A stretch of 33,549 bases of DNA from a virus. A program made the translations under genes and the position numbers. Each line of letters begins with the position of its first letter. The first letter of the stretch is position 1. This document shows positions 1 to 29,999 of this stretch, piece after piece. Under the pieces are notes generated by a model. That model worked only from the letters and a program-made list of their open reading frames with translations. It did not search any database and was not told where the DNA came from. Where the stretch lies: positions 1 to 33,549 of IMG/VR virus record IMGVR_UViG_3300037140_000288, one strand, 5' to 3'.

Positions 1-457
1 CTCCCGTAGCGCCAGTACTCCCGGGAAGTCCAGCAGCGGTGAGGGTAACTGGATTCGCTACGATAAGGCCAGTTGGACCCGTGTACTCTGTTGCGGTAAA
101 CCAACCGCCCGTAACACCGGTCGCCAAATTGAAAGTCGCGTAACCCTGAGCAATCCCACCAAACGTGCCGCCCGGACCAAAGTAATAAGATGAATTAGGA
201 TTGAGTCCAACTGAATTGACGGCTACTAGAAATGTTTCGCCCGTCGCGACCGTCTGGAACGCATCAGATACGTATTGATATGCAGGTGATCCCGCGGGAC
301 CTTGCGGGCCTGTTGCACCAATGAATCCGGGAGCTCCCGTAGCGCCGGGCGGTCCAGTCGGTCCAGTCGGACCTGTGCCGCCCATAGCTCCGCCACCAGA
401 AGGACCAACCTCCTGGATGATGACTGCTGTGCTTGCGGAGCCGGTTTGAAAGGGCAT
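1..457 (-). CDS. Collagen-like tail fibre protein (5' part, runs off the left edge)
   Basis: An open frame starts at ATG 457 and continues without a stop to the left edge, so only about 152 N-terminal residues are visible. After a short head (MPFQTGSASTAV...) residues about 28-57 are Gly-X-Y triplets (GPTGPTGPPGATGAPG type). A non-collagen stretch of roughly 90 residues follows, rich in Thr, Val, Gly and aromatic residues, and Gly-X-Y triplets resume at the edge (GSTGATG). The start lies 3 bases after the stop of the upstream collagen-like gene, so the two are co-transcribed. Collagen-like triplets are common in phage fibres, where they form trimeric stalks. The product is probably a fibre or fibre-tip protein contacting the host surface. 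The family is clear from the triplets; the exact role is inferred from position at the fibre end of the late operon. Confidence 0.8.
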   Translation of the reverse strand, partial: MPFQTGSASTAVIIQEVGPSGGGAMGGTGPTGPTGPPGATGAPGFIGATGPQGPAGSPAYQYVSDAFQTVATGETFLVAVNSVGLNPNSSYYFGPGGTFGGIAQGYATFNLATGVTGGWFTATEYTGPTGLIVANPVTLTAAGLPGSTGATG

Positions 458-460
458 GAC

Positions 461-3067
461 TTAACCTGCCACCGGGAGCCCCGTTAGATACCAAATGGAG
501 GTGCCATCAGATACACATAGGTATCCAATTTGGACTCCTCCTCCTGCTGCCGATGTTTGTCCAGTCCCACTGGGACTGGTAATGGTATCACTTCCAGATC
601 GCACATAATTAACGCTCAAACCACTTTTGCAGAAAAATAGAATTTGCACACCTGCTCCTGATGCGGATGCTCCCGGTAATGTCGCTGTAAGATTGGCTTG
701 TATTGAATAAAAGTATCCAACAACAGCGCTGAAACTGGAAGTTTTAATACCACCAACTCCCCACACTCCTGGACCACCGCCACCAGCAGATCCCGTAGGT
801 CCAGCCGGACCTGTTGGTCCAGTTGATCCAGCGCCACCAGCGCTTCCCGTAGGACCTGTTGGTCCAGTTGCGCCAGCTGTTCCTTGCAATCCACCCGGAG
901 AAACCGGTGATCCGGTTACGATTGTGGTTCCGGTCGCAGGGTTCCCTGCGTAATTCGCAAGCCATGCGCCTGTAGAACCAATGATCGTAGTGACTTTGTA
1001 ATAACCGCCAGTAGCGCCAGTGGATCCGGTTTGCCCAACATAGACAATCTCACCAGAAGCGAGCCATGAATTCTGAGCTAGACCAACTGTGATTCCCGCT
1101 GCGCCCTGAGTGATTCCCGCTGTCGTGGTTGTAAATGCATTTCCACCAGAGAAGCCCGTGGGACCAGCTCCACCCGCCCCACCCGCAGCTCCTGTGGGTC
1201 CCGTTGGTCCTGTACCAGAAGATCCGGTGGCTCCGACTGCGCCTGTCGGACCGGTTGGACCTAATGCTCCGGTCGGACCAGTCGGTCCACCAGCAGGACC
1301 TGTCGGGCCCATCGCTCCCGAGACATTTGTAACCGTGAAATTGGCTTGGCCTATAGTAAGAGATTGAGTGACGCCGGAACCAGATTGTAAAAGTCGAAGA
1401 TCAACAATGTCGCCCGAATTGAGAGACAGGATCCCACTGTTTATTAATTGCTGCGTCGGTTGGCTCGTTACACCCGAAGCTCCACCGCGAACAGCCGACA
1501 AAGTTCCATTAACAGCCACCGCAGATTGTGCCATCAGGGTCGCCGGAACATTCACCTCCATGGAACTTGTTATCAAATATGGCCCAGTGCTGTTTACTAC
1601 GATTGCTGAAAGGGCCGGACTGTAAGTCACACCAGATGATGCTGGATAGGTATTCGACCATGTGATGGTCCCGCCGGGCGCAGCATTGCCAAGAGTTAGT
1701 GTTGTACTCCCGGTCTGGTAGAAACCGCCGTAAACCGGTTGAAGTGCACCAGGACCGGTAGCTCCAACTACTCCTGTGGCTCCAACTGCTCCAATTGGAC
1801 CGGTCGGGCCGGCAGGTCCAGTGACTCCCTGAGCGCCTCCGGAACCAGTTGGGCCCGTTGGACCAAGACCAGAAGCTCCCGTTGAACCAACTGCACCCGT
1901 GGCACCAACAGCACCCGTGGGACCGGTCGGTCCGAGAGGACCCGTAACTCCCTGCGCCCCAACCGCACCGGTAGGCCCAAGAGGACCGGTAGGCCCAATA
2001 GCTCCCGTGGCACCAACAGCGCCTGTAGGACCAACAGCTCCCGTGGGTCCGAGAGGCCCTGTGACGCCCTGCGCCCCAACAGCACCTGTAGGCCCTGTGA
2101 CTCCCTGAGCTCCAACTGCGCCAGTAGCTCCAACTGCCCCCGTGGGACCAAGTGCACCTGTGGGGCCTAACGCGCCTGTTGGGCCTAACGCACCTGTAGC
2201 CCCAACAGCACCGGTGGGTCCTGTCGGTCCGAGCCCAGAAGAACCTGTGGGGCCAACATCACCCGTGGGACCCGTAGCTCCAACAGCACCCGTAGATCCA
2301 AGAGATCCAGTAGGTCCAAGAGCACCAGTTGCGCCAACCGCGCCAGTTGCACCCAAAGGACCGGTCGCACCAACTGCACCGGTTGCACCTACGACACCGG
2401 TTGGACCCGTAGGTCCCAATGCACCAGTCGCACCAGTCGCACCAGCCGGACCGGTTGGTCCAACACCAGACGCACCAGTTGGACCATCAACACCAGTTGG
2501 ACCAGTCGGCCCCGCAGGCCCAGCGGGGCCCGTTCCAGACGCTCCCGTGGGTCCAATTGGACCAGTGGGTCCAACTACGCCCGCCCCGGACATTCCAATT
2601 GGACCAGTAGCGCCCACTCCACCCGTGGGACCTGTTGGCCCAAGAGCACCCGTTGGGCCCATAGGGCCCGTTGGACCAAGCCCAGAAGAACCCGTGACGC
2701 CGGCTACCCCTGTAGGTCCCACGGGTCCTGTAGGTCCAAGGGGACCTGTAGGACCTGTTCCAGAATACCCTGTGGCTCCAATTGGACCCGTGGGACCAAG
2801 AGCACCAGCAGTTCCAGTAGCTCCAACTGCACCAGTTGGTCCGACACCAGAATAACCGGTCGGACCAAGAGCACCAGTGGGTCCTTGAAGTCCGGTGGGA
2901 CCAAGAGCGCCGGCCGGACCTGTCGGTCCAAGAGCGCCCGTAGGACCCGGAATTGTAGAACCTTGCGGTCCAGTCGGTCCCCGAGCGCCGGCACCAGGAG
3001 GCCCCTGCACTTGTTGCAGGATGAAGGCAACACCCGTGTTTGCCGAACCTGTGGGACCGGAAGACAT
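461..3067 (-). CDS. Large collagen-like fibre protein with an internal C1q/BclA-like globular domain
   Basis: This 868-residue protein is dominated by Gly-X-Y triplets, mostly GPTG, GATG and GALGPTG (residues about 20-440, 580-640 and 725-760). Three non-collagen islands interrupt it. Residues about 440-578 (starting [16 protein letters not shown]) form a beta-rich module with the strand pattern of BclA C-terminal/C1q-TNF-like trimerising domains: [21 protein letters not shown], then [19 protein letters not shown] second island is at about 641-724. A C-terminal domain is at about 765-868. In BclA-type proteins the globular domain is normally terminal, so its place between collagen blocks is unusual. 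The gene starts 2 bases after the previous stop and ends 3 bases before the next fibre gene. It probably forms a long trimeric fibre on the virion. Thr-rich GPT triplets are known O-glycosylation sites in BclA; glycosylation here is inference. Confidence 0.85.
1750..3030 (-). repeat. Gly-X-Y coding repeat tract of the large fibre gene
   Basis: The main collagen block is a dense array of 9- and 18-base near repeats encoding G-P-T, G-A-T and G-A-L/V triplets. Third positions vary freely between copies, so the repeat is kept at protein level. Shorter blocks of the same kind occur at about 1150-1320 and 790-900. Such arrays tend to expand and contract by recombination and complicate assembly. Because the repeats are codon-periodic, the other frames also stay open here. 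Confidence 0.85.
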
Positions 3068-22467: not shown

Positions 22468-23895
22468 TCAATCACTACTTCCGGGAAAATCGTTCAGGTC
22501 GAAGGCTGGACCGTAAAGCTCCGAGTCTCCCTCTCCCGCGATAACGCGATTTCGTTTGTCTTTTTCCCAAAAATCTTCAACGTACTTGTGCACGATTTCT
22601 TCCGGCGTCTTTACCTTGTCGTCCGGGAGCTTCTGCAAATAAGTCGTGCACGCGCGCCAAATGTAGAGCAAGCTGTCTGTAAGGTGGTTGTCGAACCCCG
22701 CATGCTCCTTTTTACGGCCCTCGTCCCACGGAAGCTCGACGATTTCCTTTATAAGATCGAGATTCGCGGGGCGGAGTATTTTGATTTTTCCGGCCTTAAG
22801 GTCACCGTTGAGCAAATCGATGTACCCGCGCTTATTGGTCTTCTGCGCGGGCTCCATTGGGACAGAAAACCGACGACGGATCTCTTCTGCGTAGCCCTTC
22901 CCCATGCCACCTTCGTCGCCGATCACTCGGGTGAAATGGAAAACACCTTCAAGCTCCGCCACACGTTCACCAACCTCGTTGGGACTCATCCCTTTCTCTT
23001 TGAAGCTCGCAATGACGTAGGCCACCGGGTCGTGTGGACGGTATCCAAGAAGAGTACAGGCGGTTGCGTCGTCGAAGCCAAAGTCTACCCCCAACATGTA
23101 CGTCCAGGGTTCAGTGGTAGTAAGTTTTGGAAGCTCGTCAATGCAATTTCGCAGCTCGTCGAAGCTACCGTACACCATCCCCTGACTGACGTTGACAAAT
23201 TTTGCTTCATATTCCTGCGCGAACTTAGCCCCAAGCTCGATGCGAGCCTGAGCTAATTCTTCTGGCGAGATCCGCGGGCATTCAGTCGCGGGAACCTCGA
23301 AGCGTTCCCAGATGGCTTGGCGCCGCTCCCAACACTCGAAAAAGTGCCCACGCCGGCCCTTCGGCGTCCCGGACAAGATGAGCCTGCCTCGGCGAATAAT
23401 GAGCATAGGCAAAATTGCCGTGTGCAGCTCGTCCGGAATGTCTCCTGCTTCATCTTCAATTATTAAGTCCGCCGTAAAAGACCTAACGGTTTTCTCGGTC
23501 GCTGGTAGGCTAACGATCCTCGACTTATTTCCGAACAGGATCGTGGAGACAGAATCACCTGAAATTTGAACTTTGAGCGGGAGCCAGGCCAAACGCTCTT
23601 TGCATTTGATGATGAGTTCTTTCGACTGGCGTTCAGCCGGGCAAAAAACGAGGATCGTTGATCCTGGCTTGTAAATCGCTGTGTGAACGCAAAGTGTGGC
23701 GAGAGTTGTGCTCTTTCCAGACTGGCGACTACAATTAAGGAGGATTCTTCTACTTGAAGAACGAAGGACCTTGGTTTGCCAAGGGTCCGGGTCCAAATGA
23801 GTCATCCGCGCGAAGGCGGCAGCGTCTTTATTTGCACGCCTTCGGGCTTTCTCTAGCGCAAGCGCTTCGAGCTGGACGAGAAGTTCTGGGGTCAC
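22468..23895 (-). CDS. terL: Terminase large subunit, ATPase and nuclease (475 aa)
   Basis: All expected motifs are visible: Walker A SRQSGKST at 56-63, Walker B LIIEDE at 144-149 and the coupling motif SGTP at 175-178. The RNase H-like nuclease acids are in GVDFGFDDATA (Asp271), VIGDEGG (Asp327) and NHLTDSLLY (Asp407). The enzyme docks on the portal, pumps DNA into the procapsid with ATP and cuts the concatemer. The GTG start at 23895 overlaps the preceding stop as GTGA; no better in-frame ATG lies before the first conserved segment (DPWQTKVL at 37-44). Length is normal for the family. Unusually, the candidate small subunit lies about 5.7 kb upstream, with a modification cassette between. 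Confidence 0.95.
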   Translation of the reverse strand: MTPELLVQLEALALEKARRRANKDAAAFARMTHLDPDPWQTKVLRSSSRRILLNCSRQSGKSTTLATLCVHTAIYKPGSTILVFCPAERQSKELIIKCKERLAWLPLKVQISGDSVSTILFGNKSRIVSLPATEKTVRSFTADLIIEDEAGDIPDELHTAILPMLIIRRGRLILSGTPKGRRGHFFECWERRQAIWERFEVPATECPRISPEELAQARIELGAKFAQEYEAKFVNVSQGMVYGSFDELRNCIDELPKLTTTEPWTYMLGVDFGFDDATACTLLGYRPHDPVAYVIASFKEKGMSPNEVGERVAELEGVFHFTRVIGDEGGMGKGYAEEIRRRFSVPMEPAQKTNKRGYIDLLNGDLKAGKIKILRPANLDLIKEIVELPWDEGRKKEHAGFDNHLTDSLLYIWRACTTYLQKLPDDKVKTPEEIVHKYVEDFWEKDKRNRVIAGEGDSELYGPAFDLNDFPGSSD

Positions 23896-24233
23896 ACAGC
23901 CTTAGCTTGTTTTGCCTGCATCGCGGCAAGTCCCGCGTTCTTCGGCTTGCTGGCGGCTATTGCCACCTGCGTCGGGTCGACGGGATTTGGAGCTCCCTGA
24001 GCCACACCCTCAGGTTCGCGCACCAATTCTCTCGTCATGGAGACGTGAACGGAGAATTCTTCTCCTCCACGAGAAACGGTGACGAGTTGCGACTCTACGT
24101 CGTAGTCAATGTCGAACGCGCCCCCGTTCGTGTCCGTCCTATTCGTGAAAAGCGCGGTGTTCAAATTGCCCCAACCCGGCGACTTTCCCGGACGCTTCGT
24201 TGCTTCTTTGAGTGTGACGCTCTTTAGTTTCAT
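23892..24233 (-). CDS. Hypothetical protein preceding terminase (113 aa)
   Basis: ATG 24233 has AAGAGG 6 bases upstream. The N-terminal 75 residues are beta-rich (WGNLNTALFTNRTDTNGGAFDIDYDVESQLVTVSRGGEEFSVHVSMT), suggesting a small beta-sandwich or barrel. The C-terminus is Ala/Lys-rich and helical (IAASKPKNAGLAAMQAKQAKAV). No helix-turn-helix is seen, so it is not an obvious small terminase despite its position. Its stop overlaps the terminase start (GTGA), which would couple their translation. The function is unknown. Confidence 0.6.
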   Translation of the reverse strand: MKLKSVTLKEATKRPGKSPGWGNLNTALFTNRTDTNGGAFDIDYDVESQLVTVSRGGEEFSVHVSMTRELVREPEGVAQGAPNPVDPTQVAIAASKPKNAGLAAMQAKQAKAV

Positions 24234-24236
24234 TTG

Positions 24237-24896
24237 TTACCTCTTTTGACTCCAAATAGCCGTACCATTGCCGTCGCCCCAAGGCCCACCCCGATCGTCC
24301 AAGCACACCAGGCCAGCGTCCGCACAGATTCTTTGAAGCTCAGCACGGTCTCCTGGTGTGTGCCATTCATAAACTGCCCAATCCACGTCAGAGAGGTGCG
24401 GGTAGTTTCCGAAGACCTCGACCTCAACACCCTCCGCGTCGCATTTGATGCCGTTCGCCTTGGGCAGGTCTTTCGGATGCATGACCCTGACGTTGATTCC
24501 GGAACGGCCTCTCGTGTTCCTCGCCCCCCAATCCTCGCCGTTAGAGAGAAAAGCGTCAGGAGATACCGTCACGGCGCAAGGATAGATAACGGCGAACGGC
24601 GCGTTCATTTGAAGATACTCGATGCAGTCCTTCGCCGGTTCAAAACAATGGATGGACGCTGTGGGATATTTCTTCCGAGCCCAAACCGCGTACGCGCCCC
24701 AACCCGCCCCAATGTCGAGTATGGAGTCGCAAAGCACGGGCAAGTCAGAATGATCGTATTCGACCGGTGAAGCTATGACTCTGTCATATCCGCCCGTCAC
24801 GCCCCAGACACCTCTTGAAAGCCCGGCACAAATTCGGCTTGTCTCAGGTGGCGAGTCTGGGATTTGAAAGTCACCGAGCGGTCCTTGAATGATCAT
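24237..24896 (-). CDS. FkbM-type SAM-dependent methyltransferase (219 aa)
   Basis: Motif I SILDIGAGWGAYA (58-70) and HCFEPAKD (83-90) bind S-adenosylmethionine. GIKCDAEGVEVEVF (149-162) corresponds to the K-x-D-x-E-G-x-E signature of FkbM-family O-methyltransferases, and WAVYEWHTP follows in the expected place. ATG 24896 overlaps the previous stop as ATGA; an upstream in-frame TTG (24923) is less likely. FkbM members often methylate sugar hydroxyls. Next to two glycosyltransferase genes, sugar O-methylation of a glycan is the likely role. The substrate is not known, and DNA methylation is unlikely since no DNA-methylase motif (N/D-P-P-Y/F) is present. Confidence 0.8.
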   Translation of the reverse strand: MIIQGPLGDFQIPDSPPETSRICAGLSRGVWGVTGGYDRVIASPVEYDHSDLPVLCDSILDIGAGWGAYAVWARKKYPTASIHCFEPAKDCIEYLQMNAPFAVIYPCAVTVSPDAFLSNGEDWGARNTRGRSGINVRVMHPKDLPKANGIKCDAEGVEVEVFGNYPHLSDVDWAVYEWHTPGDRAELQRICADAGLVCLDDRGGPWGDGNGTAIWSQKR

Positions 24897-25237
24897 TGGT
24901 TGTGAATCCACCAAGCTTGACAATCAATATGAGAACAGTCTTTCACGAACACGTCTTTTTCATTGTGGATGGAGCAAATCTTCGGACGCTCTATCATATT
25001 CACGATCCGCGCTTCGTACGCATCCGACGCATTCTGTTGAAGAAGCGACTGATCCCAAGCCCGGTCTCCTGCCTGAGAAAGCTGGCTTTGAGCTTGGGCC
25101 TGCGCGATGCCGTTCATTTGCGATTGCAAATTCGCATTGATGCTTTGCGACATTTGGCTTTGCAAGGACTGGCTTTGCTGGGCTTGCACGGAGTGAGATT
25201 GCTGCTGGGCGAGCTGGCCTGAAAATCGTCCGTTCAT
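24893..25237 (-). CDS. Gln/Ser-rich small protein with C-terminal Cys/His cluster (114 aa)
   Basis: Residues about 8-60 are almost all Q, S, A and L (QAQQSQSLQSQMSQSINANL), probably a long amphipathic helix. The C-terminal 35 residues carry Cys and His (ICSIHNEKDVFVKDCSHIDC...WWIHNQ) that could bind a metal ion. Both ends overlap neighbours as ATGA, with the GT4 gene upstream and the methyltransferase downstream, so it is part of the modification cassette by position. No known family was recognised. It resembles in composition the Q-rich virion proteins at 8989-10775, but no aligned block is shared. Confidence 0.55.
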   Translation of the reverse strand: MNGRFSGQLAQQQSHSVQAQQSQSLQSQMSQSINANLQSQMNGIAQAQAQSQLSQAGDRAWDQSLLQQNASDAYEARIVNMIERPKICSIHNEKDVFVKDCSHIDCQAWWIHNQ

Positions 25238-26298
25238 GTTCGCATCATCTCCGATAAAATTTTACCCGATTTTGCGTAGGTGAAACTGTTCGCAAAAGCT
25301 CGACCAAGCTCGCTATAACGATGCGCCAACAAAGGCTCAGTGAGCATTGCAATCACGGCGTCCCGGAACTCTGGCAGTCGTTCGTGTACCGGTGCTGGGG
25401 TGAGGAGCACGTTCCCTCGATAGACTGACTCTAAAGCGTCCGCTGGTGCAAGTACGACTGGCATTCCAATTTTGAGGCATTCCATGATGCTGGCGCTGAA
25501 CGTCTCACTTGGCGCCAACATAGAACATGGAAACGCGAAAACAGACGCTTCGGAAAGCTTCTTTTCCAATTCGAGTCTTGGCAGGTGATGAGAGCTTGTC
25601 ACGCCACCCGCGCCGATCGCGTAGGCCATATACTCTCGAATCCATTTAGCGCGTTTCGCCCATTCGGAGTTCTCATTTCCACGTTGCGCAAGAACTCCAT
25701 TGCACCAACTTTCCCAATCGGAGACAACGTCGAGCGTTGCATGCGGCACAGCTCTTTTGATTTCTGGCCAGATTTTCAGGAGTAAATGAAGACCTCGGTC
25801 ACAACTCGTGTGATAAATGACTCTTCCTGCAATTGGATTCCAATTAACTGAAGAAGGATTAATTGCATTCGGCAAGACACGCCAATCGGACCAAGGCGCG
25901 TACCAAGCCTTCATCGTTTCAAGGCTAGCCTGTGATGGAGTCGTGTTTATGTCTATGTGTTGCCAAGGCGCCGTCGTGTGGTACGTGTGATGGCTTGCTA
26001 TGCGTAAACAGCCCGAATACTTTTGGAGCGGATAAGCGTAGTAACAGCACCAAACGACTTGCGGTTTTCCGTACCACTCCAACTCGTCAATCGGATAGTA
26101 TTCAATTCCGAGCTGTTTCGACGCCTTCGTGAACGTCGAAAAAGCGCGGACTTTGTGGCCGTTAATTGCAAGCTCCTTCACGAGCGACAAGAAGGCAGTG
26201 CGACAACCGCCTCCCGCATTATCAGAAAACCCTTCGTCCGGGTTCATTTTGACCCCGCCAGAAGCTTCTGTCGTCAAAATTGCGTGTACTAAGCTCAT
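25234..26298 (-). CDS. GT4-type (GT-B fold) glycosyltransferase (354 aa)
   Basis: The C-terminal half shows the nucleotide-sugar site typical of GT4: YHTSCDRGLHLLLKIWPEIKRAVPHATLDVV (162-192), a hydrophobic strand ASVFAFPCS, then PSETFSASIMECLKIGMPVVL with the paired glutamates E265 and E273 (E-x7-E). The N-terminal half has a degenerate acceptor domain with GGG...KELAINGHKVRAFS. No membrane segment or signal peptide is present, so it acts in the host cytoplasm. It overlaps the Q-rich protein by ATGA. The domain closely parallels the C-terminal domain of the 750-aa fusion encoded upstream (both have the x-S-x-DRGL...WPE element), so the two may share ancestry. Donor and acceptor are unknown. 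Confidence 0.85.
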   Translation of the reverse strand: MSLVHAILTTEASGGVKMNPDEGFSDNAGGGCRTAFLSLVKELAINGHKVRAFSTFTKASKQLGIEYYPIDELEWYGKPQVVWCCYYAYPLQKYSGCLRIASHHTYHTTAPWQHIDINTTPSQASLETMKAWYAPWSDWRVLPNAINPSSVNWNPIAGRVIYHTSCDRGLHLLLKIWPEIKRAVPHATLDVVSDWESWCNGVLAQRGNENSEWAKRAKWIREYMAYAIGAGGVTSSHHLPRLELEKKLSEASVFAFPCSMLAPSETFSASIMECLKIGMPVVLAPADALESVYRGNVLLTPAPVHERLPEFRDAVIAMLTEPLLAHRYSELGRAFANSFTYAKSGKILSEMMRT

Positions 26299-26405
26299 GA
26301 TGAGTAGGATCTCAGTGCCCGTCGTGATATGATGCCGGAAGAGATCTCCGGATGCCTGGTAGCAGCCGTAGTAGGGGCCATGAAACAGAAGCGGCGGGCA
26401 TTTTC
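26299..26405. other. 107-base gap in the modification cassette
   Basis: The gap contains a GCGGGC / GCCCGC inverted repeat at its upstream edge, spanning the stop of the 62-aa gene, and a short CCGGA / TCCGG repeat. A 28-codon frame (26295-26381) ends in an ATGA overlap with the GT4 start, but it is too short to support as a gene. Confidence 0.3.
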
Positions 26406-26594
26406 TCAGAAGCCCGCGTTTGTTCGCATGCGGTCAGGAACGTCGTTTATCTGATCGTGAATGGCCTTCAAGACGTTGTCCGACACTTGCATCAGCGTGT
26501 TTGTGAGCTTTTCTGTCAAAATGTCGGAAGCTTGCATGTTTCCAATTAACCTGATGGCCAAACTTCTTGCGATTGTTGTTCTATCGAAGCTCAT
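26406..26594 (-). CDS. Small helical hypothetical protein (62 aa)
   Basis: The ATG overlaps the stop of the 750-aa glycosyltransferase (ATGA), which supports it as a true gene. The product (MSFDRTTIARSLAIRLIGNMQASDILTEKL...) is predicted to be mostly alpha-helical and amphipathic, with no membrane span or motif. It lies between the two glycosyltransferase genes and may be an accessory to one of them. The function is unknown. Confidence 0.5.
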   Translation of the reverse strand: MSFDRTTIARSLAIRLIGNMQASDILTEKLTNTLMQVSDNVLKAIHDQINDVPDRMRTNAGF

Positions 26595-28840
26595 GGTGTG
26601 AACATCCTTTGAAAATCTAACGCTACGCCGTCCCAGCTGAAATTCTCTTTCGCGTACAATTGGAGCGCCTCTCGGTCACCGAGTGTCTCAGGAGCTAGCA
26701 TGGCCGCTACAATTGATTCTTGAAAATCGGGCCAGTAAGTTTCACTGTCCGGGTCGAGAAGGATTCCGCGTTCACCAACGGTTTCTTTCAAGGCGGCCAG
26801 GTCCGATGTAACGATCCGAAGGCCCCCAGCATGAGCCTCCATAGCAGTGATACAGCTAGTCTCACCAAACCAGGTCGGGTAACACCAAACTCCGGCTTGC
26901 AAGAACTCCGTGGCGAGTTCATTTTGCGGGATTCGACCTCGCCATACGACGCCCCTATCAGCAAACGCGGCGAGAAGCCTTTGGAGCCGGTCTATTTGCT
27001 CACGAGCTGCCGCGTTACCGGCAAGGGCCTCGGCATTGTTGAACCCGTAATAGACGTGGAGCTGAGCGTCAGGAACTCGGGCCCGGACCTCCGGCCACAT
27101 GAGAATCGCTTGTTCAAGACCCCGGTCGGGGCTAGAGGAGAAGACCGCGCGATGCGGGTGACGAAGCATAACGAGTCCACCTACGCTCGGAACATGTTCC
27201 CAGCGAGCCAAATCAATGCCATTTCGCGTCTTTTGTACTTGGCTGAGCTTCAAGTACGGGTACTGCTTCAAGAAAAGCGTTCTGTGCCAATTGCTCAAAC
27301 ACAAGACTTTGTCGTAGCGCTTCGCTCTCTCGGGATTGAGCGCCGGAAGCGACGTGTCGTGAGCCCAGAGCAAGCGTTTGGACGCTCTTATTTGATTTGC
27401 GGGATCCGCCGCCTCCGGTCGCCTAGAGGAAATAACAACATCGCAATCAATATTCTTGAACCGCTTGTAATGGAAATACTCGACGCCGTCGAAAACGCCT
27501 TCGAAGCCCGGCCCACAGTGAGCATAGACTCTTACGCGATGACCGAGTTTTCTCAATCCGAGAGCGACTTTAGCGCAGGCCGTTTCCGAGCCGCCAATTC
27601 CGACGTTATCGACGCTGGAAGCATTCCAATCCTCTAAGCCCTGGCCCGCGAAGAAAACAATCTCTTGCTGTCCAACGCTTTGAACGCGGGGCGGCTCAAT
27701 TGGTACAGCTGGTTTTGGAATTAATTTATTTTCATAAGCTTGGAGATTCGCCTTGAAACTCGCGTCGTCCGGAAAAATCCGAAGAGCTTCCTTGCACGAC
27801 GTAATTGCATCCTTTACGCGACCGACCTTGTTTAGAGCGACATTGTAGAACCGGTGAATTTCGAAGTCACGTTCGTACGGACGATTGAAGATTCCGGCTT
27901 GACGCGGCAGGCCGAAGCCTATGTCGCAAAAATGGACACACTTCGCGTACCAGCGCTGGTCGCCCGTCTTTTGCGCTCGGAGAAAGCAGACCTTTCCAAC
28001 GACAAAATAGGCCTGGTCCAGGTCGTGACGCAGAAGAATGGCCTTCCAGGCCCAGGACAGGGCATCGTCGTATCTTTTGACGATTTGGCAGGTTTCGGCC
28101 GCTATGATGCACGCCTCCCAACGTTCGTCATCCCATGTCGACCGCTCCACGTAACGCGTCAGGAACTCTAGAGCGTCATCAACAAATCCAGCGTCTCGAA
28201 GTTCCTTGCCCAGGTAGAAAAGAAGGCGTGGATTTTTGTCACCTTCTTCTTCGTACTGAGCTCTCAAAATGCGCAGGTTCCTTCCAGCTTCGTCCTGTTT
28301 GCCATGCCTGTGGTGGACGAGCTTTGTGATTTGCTCAGTTTCCATATGCCACGGCCCGTGAGGAACGCACACTTCATGGCACCAACCAGTCCAAGAAAAC
28401 TGACCACCAATGAAAAGTCGCTCTCTTTCCTGCTGCATGAGGACGCGGCCATCCTCGTCGATCGCATAGTCGTATTTCATCTTCACGACGACCGGAGTGT
28501 CTTGATGTTTAATTTTGAGCATCTCTATCAAGGAAGAGAGACGCTGGCCGTCGACTAGCTCATCATCACCATCTACCCAAAGGACGTTCGGTTGCGTGGC
28601 CAGTCGAAAAGAGCGATTTCTTGCAACGTCAAATCTGAGGATCCGGTCGTACTCGTCATTGCACCCGGTGAAAACTTCGAACTTATCCGCGTACCGTCTT
28701 GCAATTTCAGGGGTGTCGTCAGTGCTTCCAGTGTCGACGATGCAAATCTCTTGAACGTGAGGACGAATGGACTGCAAGCACGCTTCGAGTTGAAGCGTCT
28801 CATTCCGGACTATCATGCAGGCGGAAATTGCGGCGGCCAT
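26591..28840 (-). CDS. Bifunctional glycosyltransferase: GT2 + TPR + GT4 fusion (about 749 aa)
   Basis: Residues 1-190 are a GT2 (GT-A fold) domain: SACMIVRNETLQLEACLQSI, EICIVDTGSTDDTPEIA and WVDGDDE with the DxD metal site near residue 91. Residues about 200-375 are tetratricopeptide-like helical repeats (LLFYLGKELRDAGFVDDALEF, RFYNVALNKVGRVKDAITSC, EALRIFPDDASFKANL). Residues about 400-750 are a GT4 (GT-B fold) domain with GIGGSETACAKVALGLRKLGHRV, SSSPDRGLEQAILMWPEVRA, and CYPTWFGETSCITAMEAHAGG. Such GT2-TPR proteins are known to build or transfer glycans, and TPRs often bind protein acceptors. The ATG at 28840 is used; a GTG one codon upstream is an alternative. Catalysis of two sugar additions is inferred. 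Confidence 0.85.
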   Translation of the reverse strand: MAAAISACMIVRNETLQLEACLQSIRPHVQEICIVDTGSTDDTPEIARRYADKFEVFTGCNDEYDRILRFDVARNRSFRLATQPNVLWVDGDDELVDGQRLSSLIEMLKIKHQDTPVVVKMKYDYAIDEDGRVLMQQERERLFIGGQFSWTGWCHEVCVPHGPWHMETEQITKLVHHRHGKQDEAGRNLRILRAQYEEEGDKNPRLLFYLGKELRDAGFVDDALEFLTRYVERSTWDDERWEACIIAAETCQIVKRYDDALSWAWKAILLRHDLDQAYFVVGKVCFLRAQKTGDQRWYAKCVHFCDIGFGLPRQAGIFNRPYERDFEIHRFYNVALNKVGRVKDAITSCKEALRIFPDDASFKANLQAYENKLIPKPAVPIEPPRVQSVGQQEIVFFAGQGLEDWNASSVDNVGIGGSETACAKVALGLRKLGHRVRVYAHCGPGFEGVFDGVEYFHYKRFKNIDCDVVISSRRPEAADPANQIRASKRLLWAHDTSLPALNPERAKRYDKVLCLSNWHRTLFLKQYPYLKLSQVQKTRNGIDLARWEHVPSVGGLVMLRHPHRAVFSSSPDRGLEQAILMWPEVRARVPDAQLHVYYGFNNAEALAGNAAAREQIDRLQRLLAAFADRGVVWRGRIPQNELATEFLQAGVWCYPTWFGETSCITAMEAHAGGLRIVTSDLAALKETVGERGILLDPDSETYWPDFQESIVAAMLAPETLGDREALQLYAKENFSWDGVALDFQRMFTP

Positions 28841-28855
28841 CACGTATGTCCGATC

Positions 28856-29122
28856 ATGGCGCTAGATCTAGCGAGCGGGCATAACTGGGAGCCGCGTGAT
28901 AACGGCGACGGCGAGCGATGCACAGAATGCGGGCTCTCAAAAGTGAATAAAGCGGGTGCAATGAAAATCCGTAGGAATGCTATGCATATCAATTGGCAAA
29001 AGATCCAAATAGACCTCTTTTTTATTGGTGTAGAAGGACATGAATGGAAGGTCACTTCCAGTTTTGTGATGCACTGCTCCAAAATGCAGGAATATGTAGT
29101 GCAATCAATCATGGAGTCTTAG
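28856..29122 (+). CDS. Small Cys-pair (zinc-finger-like) protein on the plus strand (88 aa)
   Basis: The frame reads MALDLASGHNWEPRDNGDGERCTECGLSKV: His9 with C22-x2-C25 gives a ribbon-like half site, and H73/C74 (VMHCSK) could complete it. The rest has alternating strands (WQKIQIDLFFIGVEGHEWKVTSSF). The frame continues upstream, but residues before Met 28856 are antisense to the glycosyltransferase gene. It begins 15 bases from the GT2 start and its stop abuts the stop of the GNAT gene with no gap. This is the same insertion geometry as the HNH genes, though no HNH motif is present. The function is unknown. Confidence 0.5.
   Translation: MALDLASGHNWEPRDNGDGERCTECGLSKVNKAGAMKIRRNAMHINWQKIQIDLFFIGVEGHEWKVTSSFVMHCSKMQEYVVQSIMES
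28860..28873. promoter_or_regulatory. 14-bp perfect palindrome at the divergent GT2 / Cys-protein start
   Basis: CGCTAGATCTAGCG is a perfect 14-base palindrome lying 19 bases upstream of the glycosyltransferase start and at codons 2-6 of the plus-strand ORF. Its position between two divergent starts suits an operator, but it may be a chance or coding palindrome. No promoter elements were identified beside it. Confidence 0.3.
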
Positions 29123-29569
29123 CTACCACGCTCTGTACGGATTGAAGGACCAGTTGTCCGGGATTTTTGGAGTCAATTCCTCGAACACGGGCTTGTACGG
29201 GTACTCGCAATCTTTGTGGATGAAATCGTGAAGAAGAGCTTTTGCGATGCCCATCTTCCTCGCTGATTTCTTCACGTACACGTAATGAATTACGTTCGAC
29301 GATAAGTCGACCACGGTCCAGCCGAAAATTGCGTCCTGTTCGTCAGGCACTACGGCTACGAGCGTTACAATTGTTGTTTTTGCTAAAATGTCGCGGATGA
29401 CGCGCTTCTGTTCTCTCATGTAGCAGCGGCCCGCGGAACGGGCTCTCTCGCTGTTCTTGTCCGATTCTATCCAACTGTCTACGATCAAACTGTGATCGAG
29501 CGGATAACCGGGCCTGATGAGAAAAACCGGATTCGCAGGACCAATTTCTTCAGTGCTCGGTGTGGTCAT
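29123..29569 (-). CDS. GNAT-family N-acetyltransferase-like protein (148 aa)
   Basis: The segment VIHYVYVKKSARKMGIAKALLHDFI (93-117) matches GNAT motif A, with the acetyl-CoA pyrophosphate loop R/Q-x-x-G-x-A as R104-K-M-G-I-A. The strand IVTLVAVVPDEQDAIFGWTVVD upstream and an N-terminal helix region complete the fold. ATG 29569 is preferred to an in-frame TTG (29593). The start overlaps the previous gene's stop by 20 bases. The acceptor may be a protein amine, an amino sugar or a small molecule. Location between the candidate small terminase and the glycosyltransferases links it by position to glycan or virion modification, but GNAT genes near terminases also occur without such neighbours. 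Confidence 0.75.
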   Translation of the reverse strand: MTTPSTEEIGPANPVFLIRPGYPLDHSLIVDSWIESDKNSERARSAGRCYMREQKRVIRDILAKTTIVTLVAVVPDEQDAIFGWTVVDLSSNVIHYVYVKKSARKMGIAKALLHDFIHKDCEYPYKPVFEELTPKIPDNWSFNPYRAW

Positions 29570-29999
29570 CAGCTTTAGCACTAAGTTGTGCAACGAGTTC
29601 GACCGTACGCTTTGTTAGTTCATCGTCTGTCAATTGTTCCAATTGCTGATGAACGTCAATTTGCTGCGGGCTCATGACACCCCACAACTCCGCTTGCGTC
29701 CTGAGCGTATTTGCTACGACGCCCCACTTTCTGTCCTTGCTCGCTTCGCGTACGACAGTTTGGAGTGCGGAACTTATACACGCTCGGATTCCTTCTTTAT
29801 CTGTAGAAATCAAGCGCCTTAGAGTGCGGGACGCTTCCTGAGACAGTTGCTCCATCTGATTCTCAGTCGTTTTCCATTCGACCTGAAGCTCACGATTTCG
29901 ACTCGGAGTCCAGATGCCCTTTTCCATTTCCTGGATTATCACGTCCAGATGGATTTCCCGTGAGGACCTTTGTCCGTTCCTTGGTTTTCGGTGTGTCAT
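29550..29999 (-). CDS. Candidate terminase small subunit (149 aa)
   Basis: The product is almost wholly alpha-helical and charged. After a basic N-terminus (MTHRKPRNGQRSSREIHLDVII) comes EWKTTENQMEQLSQEASRTLRRLISTDKEGIRACISSALQTVVREASKDRKWGVVANTLRTQAELWGVMSPQQIDV, then LTDDELTKRTVELVAQL. The A...AELWG...P-x-x-x-D/E-V and L-T/S-D-D/E-E-L pattern near the C-terminus is frequent in small terminase-like phage proteins. These form a ring that recognises the packaging site. The first 110 bases overlap the upstream HTH gene in another frame; an internal start at MEKGIWTP would shorten but not remove the overlap. The identification is by pattern, and the large subunit lies 5.7 kb downstream. Confidence 0.5.
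   Translation of the reverse strand: MTHRKPRNGQRSSREIHLDVIIQEMEKGIWTPSRNRELQVEWKTTENQMEQLSQEASRTLRRLISTDKEGIRACISSALQTVVREASKDRKWGVVANTLRTQAELWGVMSPQQIDVHQQLEQLTDDELTKRTVELVAQLSAKADDHTEH

Follow-up and report, generated by a model that had tools for sequence, protein, structure and literature searches.

Enzymes that join a glycosyltransferase (GT) domain to tetratricopeptide repeats (TPR) modify proteins in several bacteria. SgtA of C. difficile, a GT-A domain followed by TPR and encoded beside bclA3, transfers beta-O-GlcNAc in vitro onto Thr of the GPT collagen repeats of BclA3 (PMC7157674), and GmaR modifies flagellin (PMC9638930). On the viral side, virion glycans of mycobacteriophages are placed on capsid and tail tube in work cited in PMC11256854 and PMC12619734, and in mimivirus L230 a hydroxylysine glucosyltransferase is joined to a lysyl hydroxylase (PMC4691112). 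Here we analysed the IMG/VR virus record IMGVR_UViG_3300037140_000288 over its whole length of 33,549 bases (the window). Its minus strand encodes two glycosyltransferases and an FkbM-family methyltransferase just upstream of the large terminase gene. We favour, with some reserve, the reading that these genes form an inserted protein-glycosylation island of the GT2-TPR type, most likely acting on a Thr-rich collagen-like fibre encoded at 461-3067. The features on which the argument turns are:

26591..28843, minus strand: GT2-TPR-GT4 fusion glycosyltransferase, 750 aa (Pfam GT2/TPR/GT4, PDB sequence matches, AlphaFold2 model, Foldseek)
25234..26298, minus strand: second GT4 glycosyltransferase, 354 aa, EX7E intact (PF13692, family search of the record)
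24893..25237, minus strand: g23, Gln/Ser-rich small protein with a C-terminal Cys motif (ATGA-coupled to GT4 and FkbM)
24237..24896, minus strand: FkbM-family methyltransferase (TIGR01444, motifs, start)
29123..29569, minus strand: GNAT acetyltransferase-like gene, flank of the island and conserved clade module (35 relative loci, profile)
23892..24233, minus strand: g21, conserved small protein, other flank of the island (similar-looking short proteins between GNAT and TerL in relatives)
22468..23895, minus strand: large terminase, TerL (phrog_7579 7e-45, phrog_2 7e-40)
461..3067, minus strand: collagen-like fibre, candidate acceptor (PHROG tail fibre, composition)

The three enzyme genes named in the original prediction are really present, as attested by Pfam and TIGR matches and by intact catalytic motifs. 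The fusion protein matched Pfam GT2 and GT4 with E-values of 9e-15 and 2e-8, its GT2 domain keeps WVDGDD, and EX7E is intact in both GT4 domains, that of the fusion and that of the separate gene. The separate GT4 scored 28.0 bits with PF13692 against a cut-off of 27; viral contigs searched with it alone gave no match. The FkbM protein scored 43.3 bits with TIGR01444, above the curated cut-off of 37.7, and retains the motifs DIGAGWGAY and DAEGVEVEVF; its start is probably the ATG at 24896, which overlaps the g23 stop, rather than the TTG at 24923.

The fusion has the architecture of the SunS/GmaR/SgtA type, with GT2 followed by TPR-like helical repeats in a SunS-like fold. Its first half matched the PDB sequences of GmaR (6e-13, the best match) and SunS (6e-9). 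The structure prediction suggested as a check of the original prediction gave an AlphaFold2 model (pLDDT 86.9) that resembles SunS and ThuS, which are peptide S-glycosyltransferases: these were among the first Foldseek matches (9e-18), together with OGT/SPY and GlgM/PimA-type GT4 enzymes. With TIGR04195, the SunS peptide S-glycosyltransferase family, the fusion scored 35.6 bits, below the cut-off, which is 350. Sequence and modelled fold thus support a grouping of the GT2-TPR half with the protein-glycosylating enzymes SunS, ThuS and GmaR. Since all three characterised enzymes of the same layout that we checked (SunS on a peptide, GmaR and SgtA) act on proteins, we propose a protein acceptor for the phage enzyme.

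We compared the locus with that of L015, the closest comparable relative (capsid 79%, portal 64% and TerL 56% identical). There the order is helix-turn-helix (HTH) gene, candidate small terminase (TerS), GNAT, apparent g23 counterpart, 88-aa gene, g21, 55-aa gene and TerL. No glycosyltransferase lies in the GNAT-TerL interval of L015, and the g23 counterpart, in a comparison by eye, directly follows GNAT without GTs. The whole records of 50 relatives gave no GT2, GT4 or FkbM match, while the same GT4 and FkbM searches recovered both genes in the window. Many of these records are fragments, and the absence is best founded where the interval is concerned and in the two near-full-length relatives L092 (37 kb, capsid 63% identical) and L094 (36 kb, capsid 58%), both of which are GT-free. 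By this sequence comparison, an island made up of the GTs and FkbM has entered between GNAT and g21, and within the clade it was found in this phage only. Foreign composition was not seen, the GC content at third codon positions (GC3) being 0.52-0.59 in the island versus 0.50-0.69 in core genes; the insertion therefore rests on the comparison, and composition reveals no recent foreign origin. A further relative (L115:357-4547, record G043, the same as L093) encodes, at the corresponding position behind g2/g3, a GPQ/GXT collagen-like fibre of 1396 aa. We considered it as an example of a collagen fibre in a GT-free relative and set it aside, since the record breaks off 1.5 kb upstream of TerL, where an island would be expected, and so proves nothing.

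The GNAT gene, which the original prediction had counted in the glycan cassette, is a GNAT but not a member of the island. Its identity is weak from the single sequence, and a profile of 22 homologues matched a GNAT structure (E 1e-4). In 35 loci of relatives a GNAT homologue closely precedes TerL, the two never being more than 2.0 kb apart (5.2 kb in the window), and it is kept in relatives without any GT. We therefore assign GNAT to an old packaging module, which rules it out of the cassette and leaves the acyl-capping step that had been ascribed to it unsupported. A divergent GNAT-like gene next to TerL is common to a wide clade of uncultured phages (for example L015, L017, L028, L060, L094). 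The separation of the two terminase genes, presented earlier as an anomaly, is by itself not odd either, because this clade normally has GNAT and small genes between them.

We next turned to bacterial relatives of the phage enzyme and their neighbours. GTDB genomes were scanned with the phage enzyme, blind to collagen, and yielded 17 Bacillota loci. A collagen-like GXT gene lay within 5 kb in 11 of these (Bacillales/Clostridia), mostly within about 500 bases and often as the next gene; the one in L155 is a short frame truncated where the contig stops. Thr was the commonest third residue in the neighbouring collagen-like genes where this was counted. Plasmid loci gave a similar picture, with a collagen-like gene likewise near in seven of nine, several of them annotated as collagen-like proteins. 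As collagen domains are sparse per genome, this adjacency would not be expected by chance. The Listeria GmaR gene adjoins the flagellin gene. Relatives outside the Bacillota showed no collagen-like neighbours, Gly-rich proteins in Polyangium being left uncounted.

The fibre encoded in the window contains 169 G-X-Y triplets, of which 45 are GPT, with Thr third in 44%. Because of these GPT-rich, Thr-third triplets it has the make-up of an SgtA-type substrate, and by analogy we regard it as the leading candidate acceptor, a choice held tentatively. The original prediction was that this phage may build and cap a glycan on its own fibre proteins. The kinship of the GT2-TPR unit, the SgtA precedent and the Thr-rich collagen neighbours in Bacillales and Clostridia speak for the glycosylation, whereas the capping part is unsupported: besides GNAT, this applies to the anthrose-like cap, as no rhamnose or anthrose biosynthesis genes occur among the ORFs (open reading frames) scanned in this incomplete record.

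Several observations weigh against the fibre. The collagen genes (2-3067) and the fusion gene (26591-28843) are on the same strand but 23 kb apart, whereas the bacterial GTs neighbour their acceptors; the adjoining GT and GXT-rich collagen-like gene of the SgtA arrangement is not found in this phage. No sugar-nucleotide genes were seen in the record, and the case concerns a single genome with an incomplete record. In the GT2 tree the window enzyme sits on a long branch, and kinship is rejected neither with the phage GTs nor with the collagen-linked Bacillota GTs (AU p 0.85 and 0.87). Of the 33 other phage records in which related GTs occur, only two encode a collagen-like gene; the remaining 31, all with a GT2-TPR gene, include MW202718.1, which is annotated as a complete genome. 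A survey for co-occurrence of cassette and collagen-like fibre, proposed with the original prediction as a way to refute it, thus went against it for phages in general, and co-occurrence across phages is unsupported as proof of the target. Because most GT2-TPR phages have no collagen gene, the fibre is not the general acceptor, though possibly the acceptor here.

The strongest alternative follows from the same survey: the island might glycosylate another virion protein, for example the major capsid protein (MCP), as in mycobacteriophages, or the Gln/Ser-rich g23. We consider this somewhat improbable. Most phages with related GTs, being collagen-free, must use some other acceptor, and the related GTs group near TerL, in the head-end part of the operon: a TerL was detected in 14 of the related phage records, in 12 of these the GT2-TPR gene is at most about 8 kb from it (a count that includes some near-duplicate records), and in one entire phage group it lies directly behind TerL. 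Known phage virion glycans sit on capsid and tail tube, and ATGA overlaps couple g23 to GT4 on one side and to FkbM on the other. Against this, the apparent g23 counterpart in L015 and the MCP in relatives exist without GTs, and the SgtA-type precedent points to GXT repeats.

Whichever virion protein is involved, glycosylation of the virion is likely. The position of the GTs near TerL, together with the placement of the GT gene of MW202718 between MCP and tail genes, in the virion region, favours a virion protein over the host surface. Modification of the host surface, for superinfection exclusion or receptor masking, is something that phage glycosyltransferases are known to do (PMC10202952); we judge it unlikely here, since family scans found no flippase, GtrA-like or other membrane component, the GT2-TPR kin are protein-acceptor enzymes, and a late virion operon with terminase would be late for exclusion. 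Glycosylation of modified bases in phage DNA is very improbable: hypermodification of DNA by GTs of phages does occur (Pyle et al. 2024, as cited in PMC12619734), but no base hydroxymethylation gene was present among the ORFs scanned in the incomplete record and the TPR/SunS-type architecture indicates a peptide acceptor.

We thus retain the island as a set of protein-glycosylating enzymes with the fibre as preferred acceptor, and suggest the following scheme. The TPR would hold a virion protein while the GT2-TPR unit puts the first sugar on Ser/Thr or, less likely, on Cys. The fused GT4 and the separate GT4 would add further sugars, one of which FkbM would O-methylate. In this phage the acceptor would most likely be the Thr-rich GXT collagen-like fibre at 461-3067. 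In its fullest form, which we put forward only as a possibility, the phage makes an SgtA/BclA-like O-glycan with two GT4 extensions and FkbM O-methylation on the GXT Thr residues of its own fibre.

The island lies in a larger virion operon. On the minus strand the order is HTH, candidate TerS, GNAT, the GT/FkbM enzymes, g21, TerL, portal, capsid, internal virion and tail genes, and two collagen-like genes at the left end, so that the operon holds the coupled GT/FkbM genes upstream of TerL. In another branch of the clade (L004, L067-L070, L090 and similar), TerL is oriented opposite to the portal and capsid genes. The nearest phage kin are other uncultured tailed phages, and the capsid protein is of podovirus type (NF033394, below cut-off). 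The record is given in full, without end repeats, and is probably a fragment; larger records of relatives reach 36-41 kb. The remaining features of interest are:

29550..29999, minus strand: candidate small terminase (homologues upstream of GNAT in L015, L021, L028, L033)
28856..29122, plus strand: small CTECG (Zn-motif) ORF, probable gene opposite to the operon (codon-position GC)
26406..26594, minus strand: 62-aa ORF (ATGA-coupled to the GT fusion stop)
2..457, minus strand: another collagen-like ORF downstream of the fibre, truncated at the end of the record (composition)

The TerS assignment is tentative. Its position upstream of GNAT is conserved, but no PHROG or Pfam family matched, and the model (pLDDT 74) gave no significant PDB match and no TerS fold. 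The ATGA-coupled run of the original prediction holds in part. ATGA overlaps join the fusion to the 62-aa gene, GT4 to g23 and g23 to FkbM, while 107 bases between the 62-aa gene and GT4 are the only break from fusion to FkbM, and the terS/GNAT overlap is 20 bases. Between g21 and TerL the overlap is GTGA, four bases long. A minus-strand ORF at 28840-29112 is probably non-coding (GC1 0.36, below GC2 0.52), and the overlapping plus-strand CTECG ORF fits coding better (GC1 0.51, above GC2 0.36); family scans of the latter gave no match. Promoters and terminators internal to the region showed no excess over shuffled sequences, and no RNA families or tRNAs were found in the window.

Among phages, the uncultured podoviruses MW202524 and MW202718 and the IMG/VR loci L123 and L124 resemble the window fusion most, with a full-length three-domain match. 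MW202718 differs in having other GTs, non-FkbM methyltransferases and no collagen-like gene. One phage group has a different arrangement, in which TerL is followed by GT2-TPR with the first half of GT4, a GroEL-like gene (about 520 aa, recognised by reading the sequence) and the second GT4 half as an ORF of 185-208 aa (L130:9803-13694, L131:6678-10996, L133:9995-14038, L135:1349-5404, L143:9809-13688, L144:2915-6872, also L132). To judge from the sequences, one glycosyltransferase domain is apparently divided there over two genes around a chaperonin.

Established cases of phage virion glycosylation are few, and the literature consulted names capsid and tail tube as acceptors. The present phage combines Thr-rich collagen-like fibres with a class of enzymes whose mechanism is solved and for which there is a GPT-collagen precedent. 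If the proposal is true, such phages would rely on a glycan of their own making for receptor binding or for the stability of the fibre, and the system would be a phage counterpart of spore-surface collagen glycosylation, with its enzymes in the virion operon. The idea is testable in vitro with synthetic GXT peptides, phage culture being unneeded. The recurrence of the family beside terminase in several unrelated phage groups hints at a wider, unstudied class of virion-protein glycosyltransferases.

The known systems each share part of this picture. SgtA, likened by its described layout rather than by direct sequence comparison, also has a GT-A catalytic domain followed by TPR and acts on Thr in GPT repeats such as the phage fibre has; it differs in being 358 aa long, without a GT4 domain and encoded beside bclA3, whereas the phage protein carries GT4 and its gene is separated from that of the fibre by 23 kb. 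SunS and ThuS (SPbeta prophage, Bacillus) share GT2 and the helical repeat domain, with significant sequence and fold matches, but modify Cys of a bacteriocin and have no GT4. GmaR, the Listeria flagellin O-GlcNAc transferase, is likewise GT2-TPR with its acceptor encoded alongside, and has a C-terminal antirepressor domain in place of GT4. Mycobacteriophages Che8 and Rita also encode GTs thought to decorate virion proteins; their acceptors are capsid and tail tube, and in Maravista (F1 cluster) the GTs are near the genome end. With L230, mimivirus too glycosylates collagen-like proteins of its own, as proposed here, by an unrelated mechanism. The open-access literature searched, from which subscription papers are mostly missing, yielded no account of glycosylation on a collagen fibre of a phage. 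The pieces are thus known separately, from mycobacteriophage virion glycans, mimivirus collagen and the GT2-TPR enzyme of C. difficile, and it is their proposed combination in a phage that would be new.

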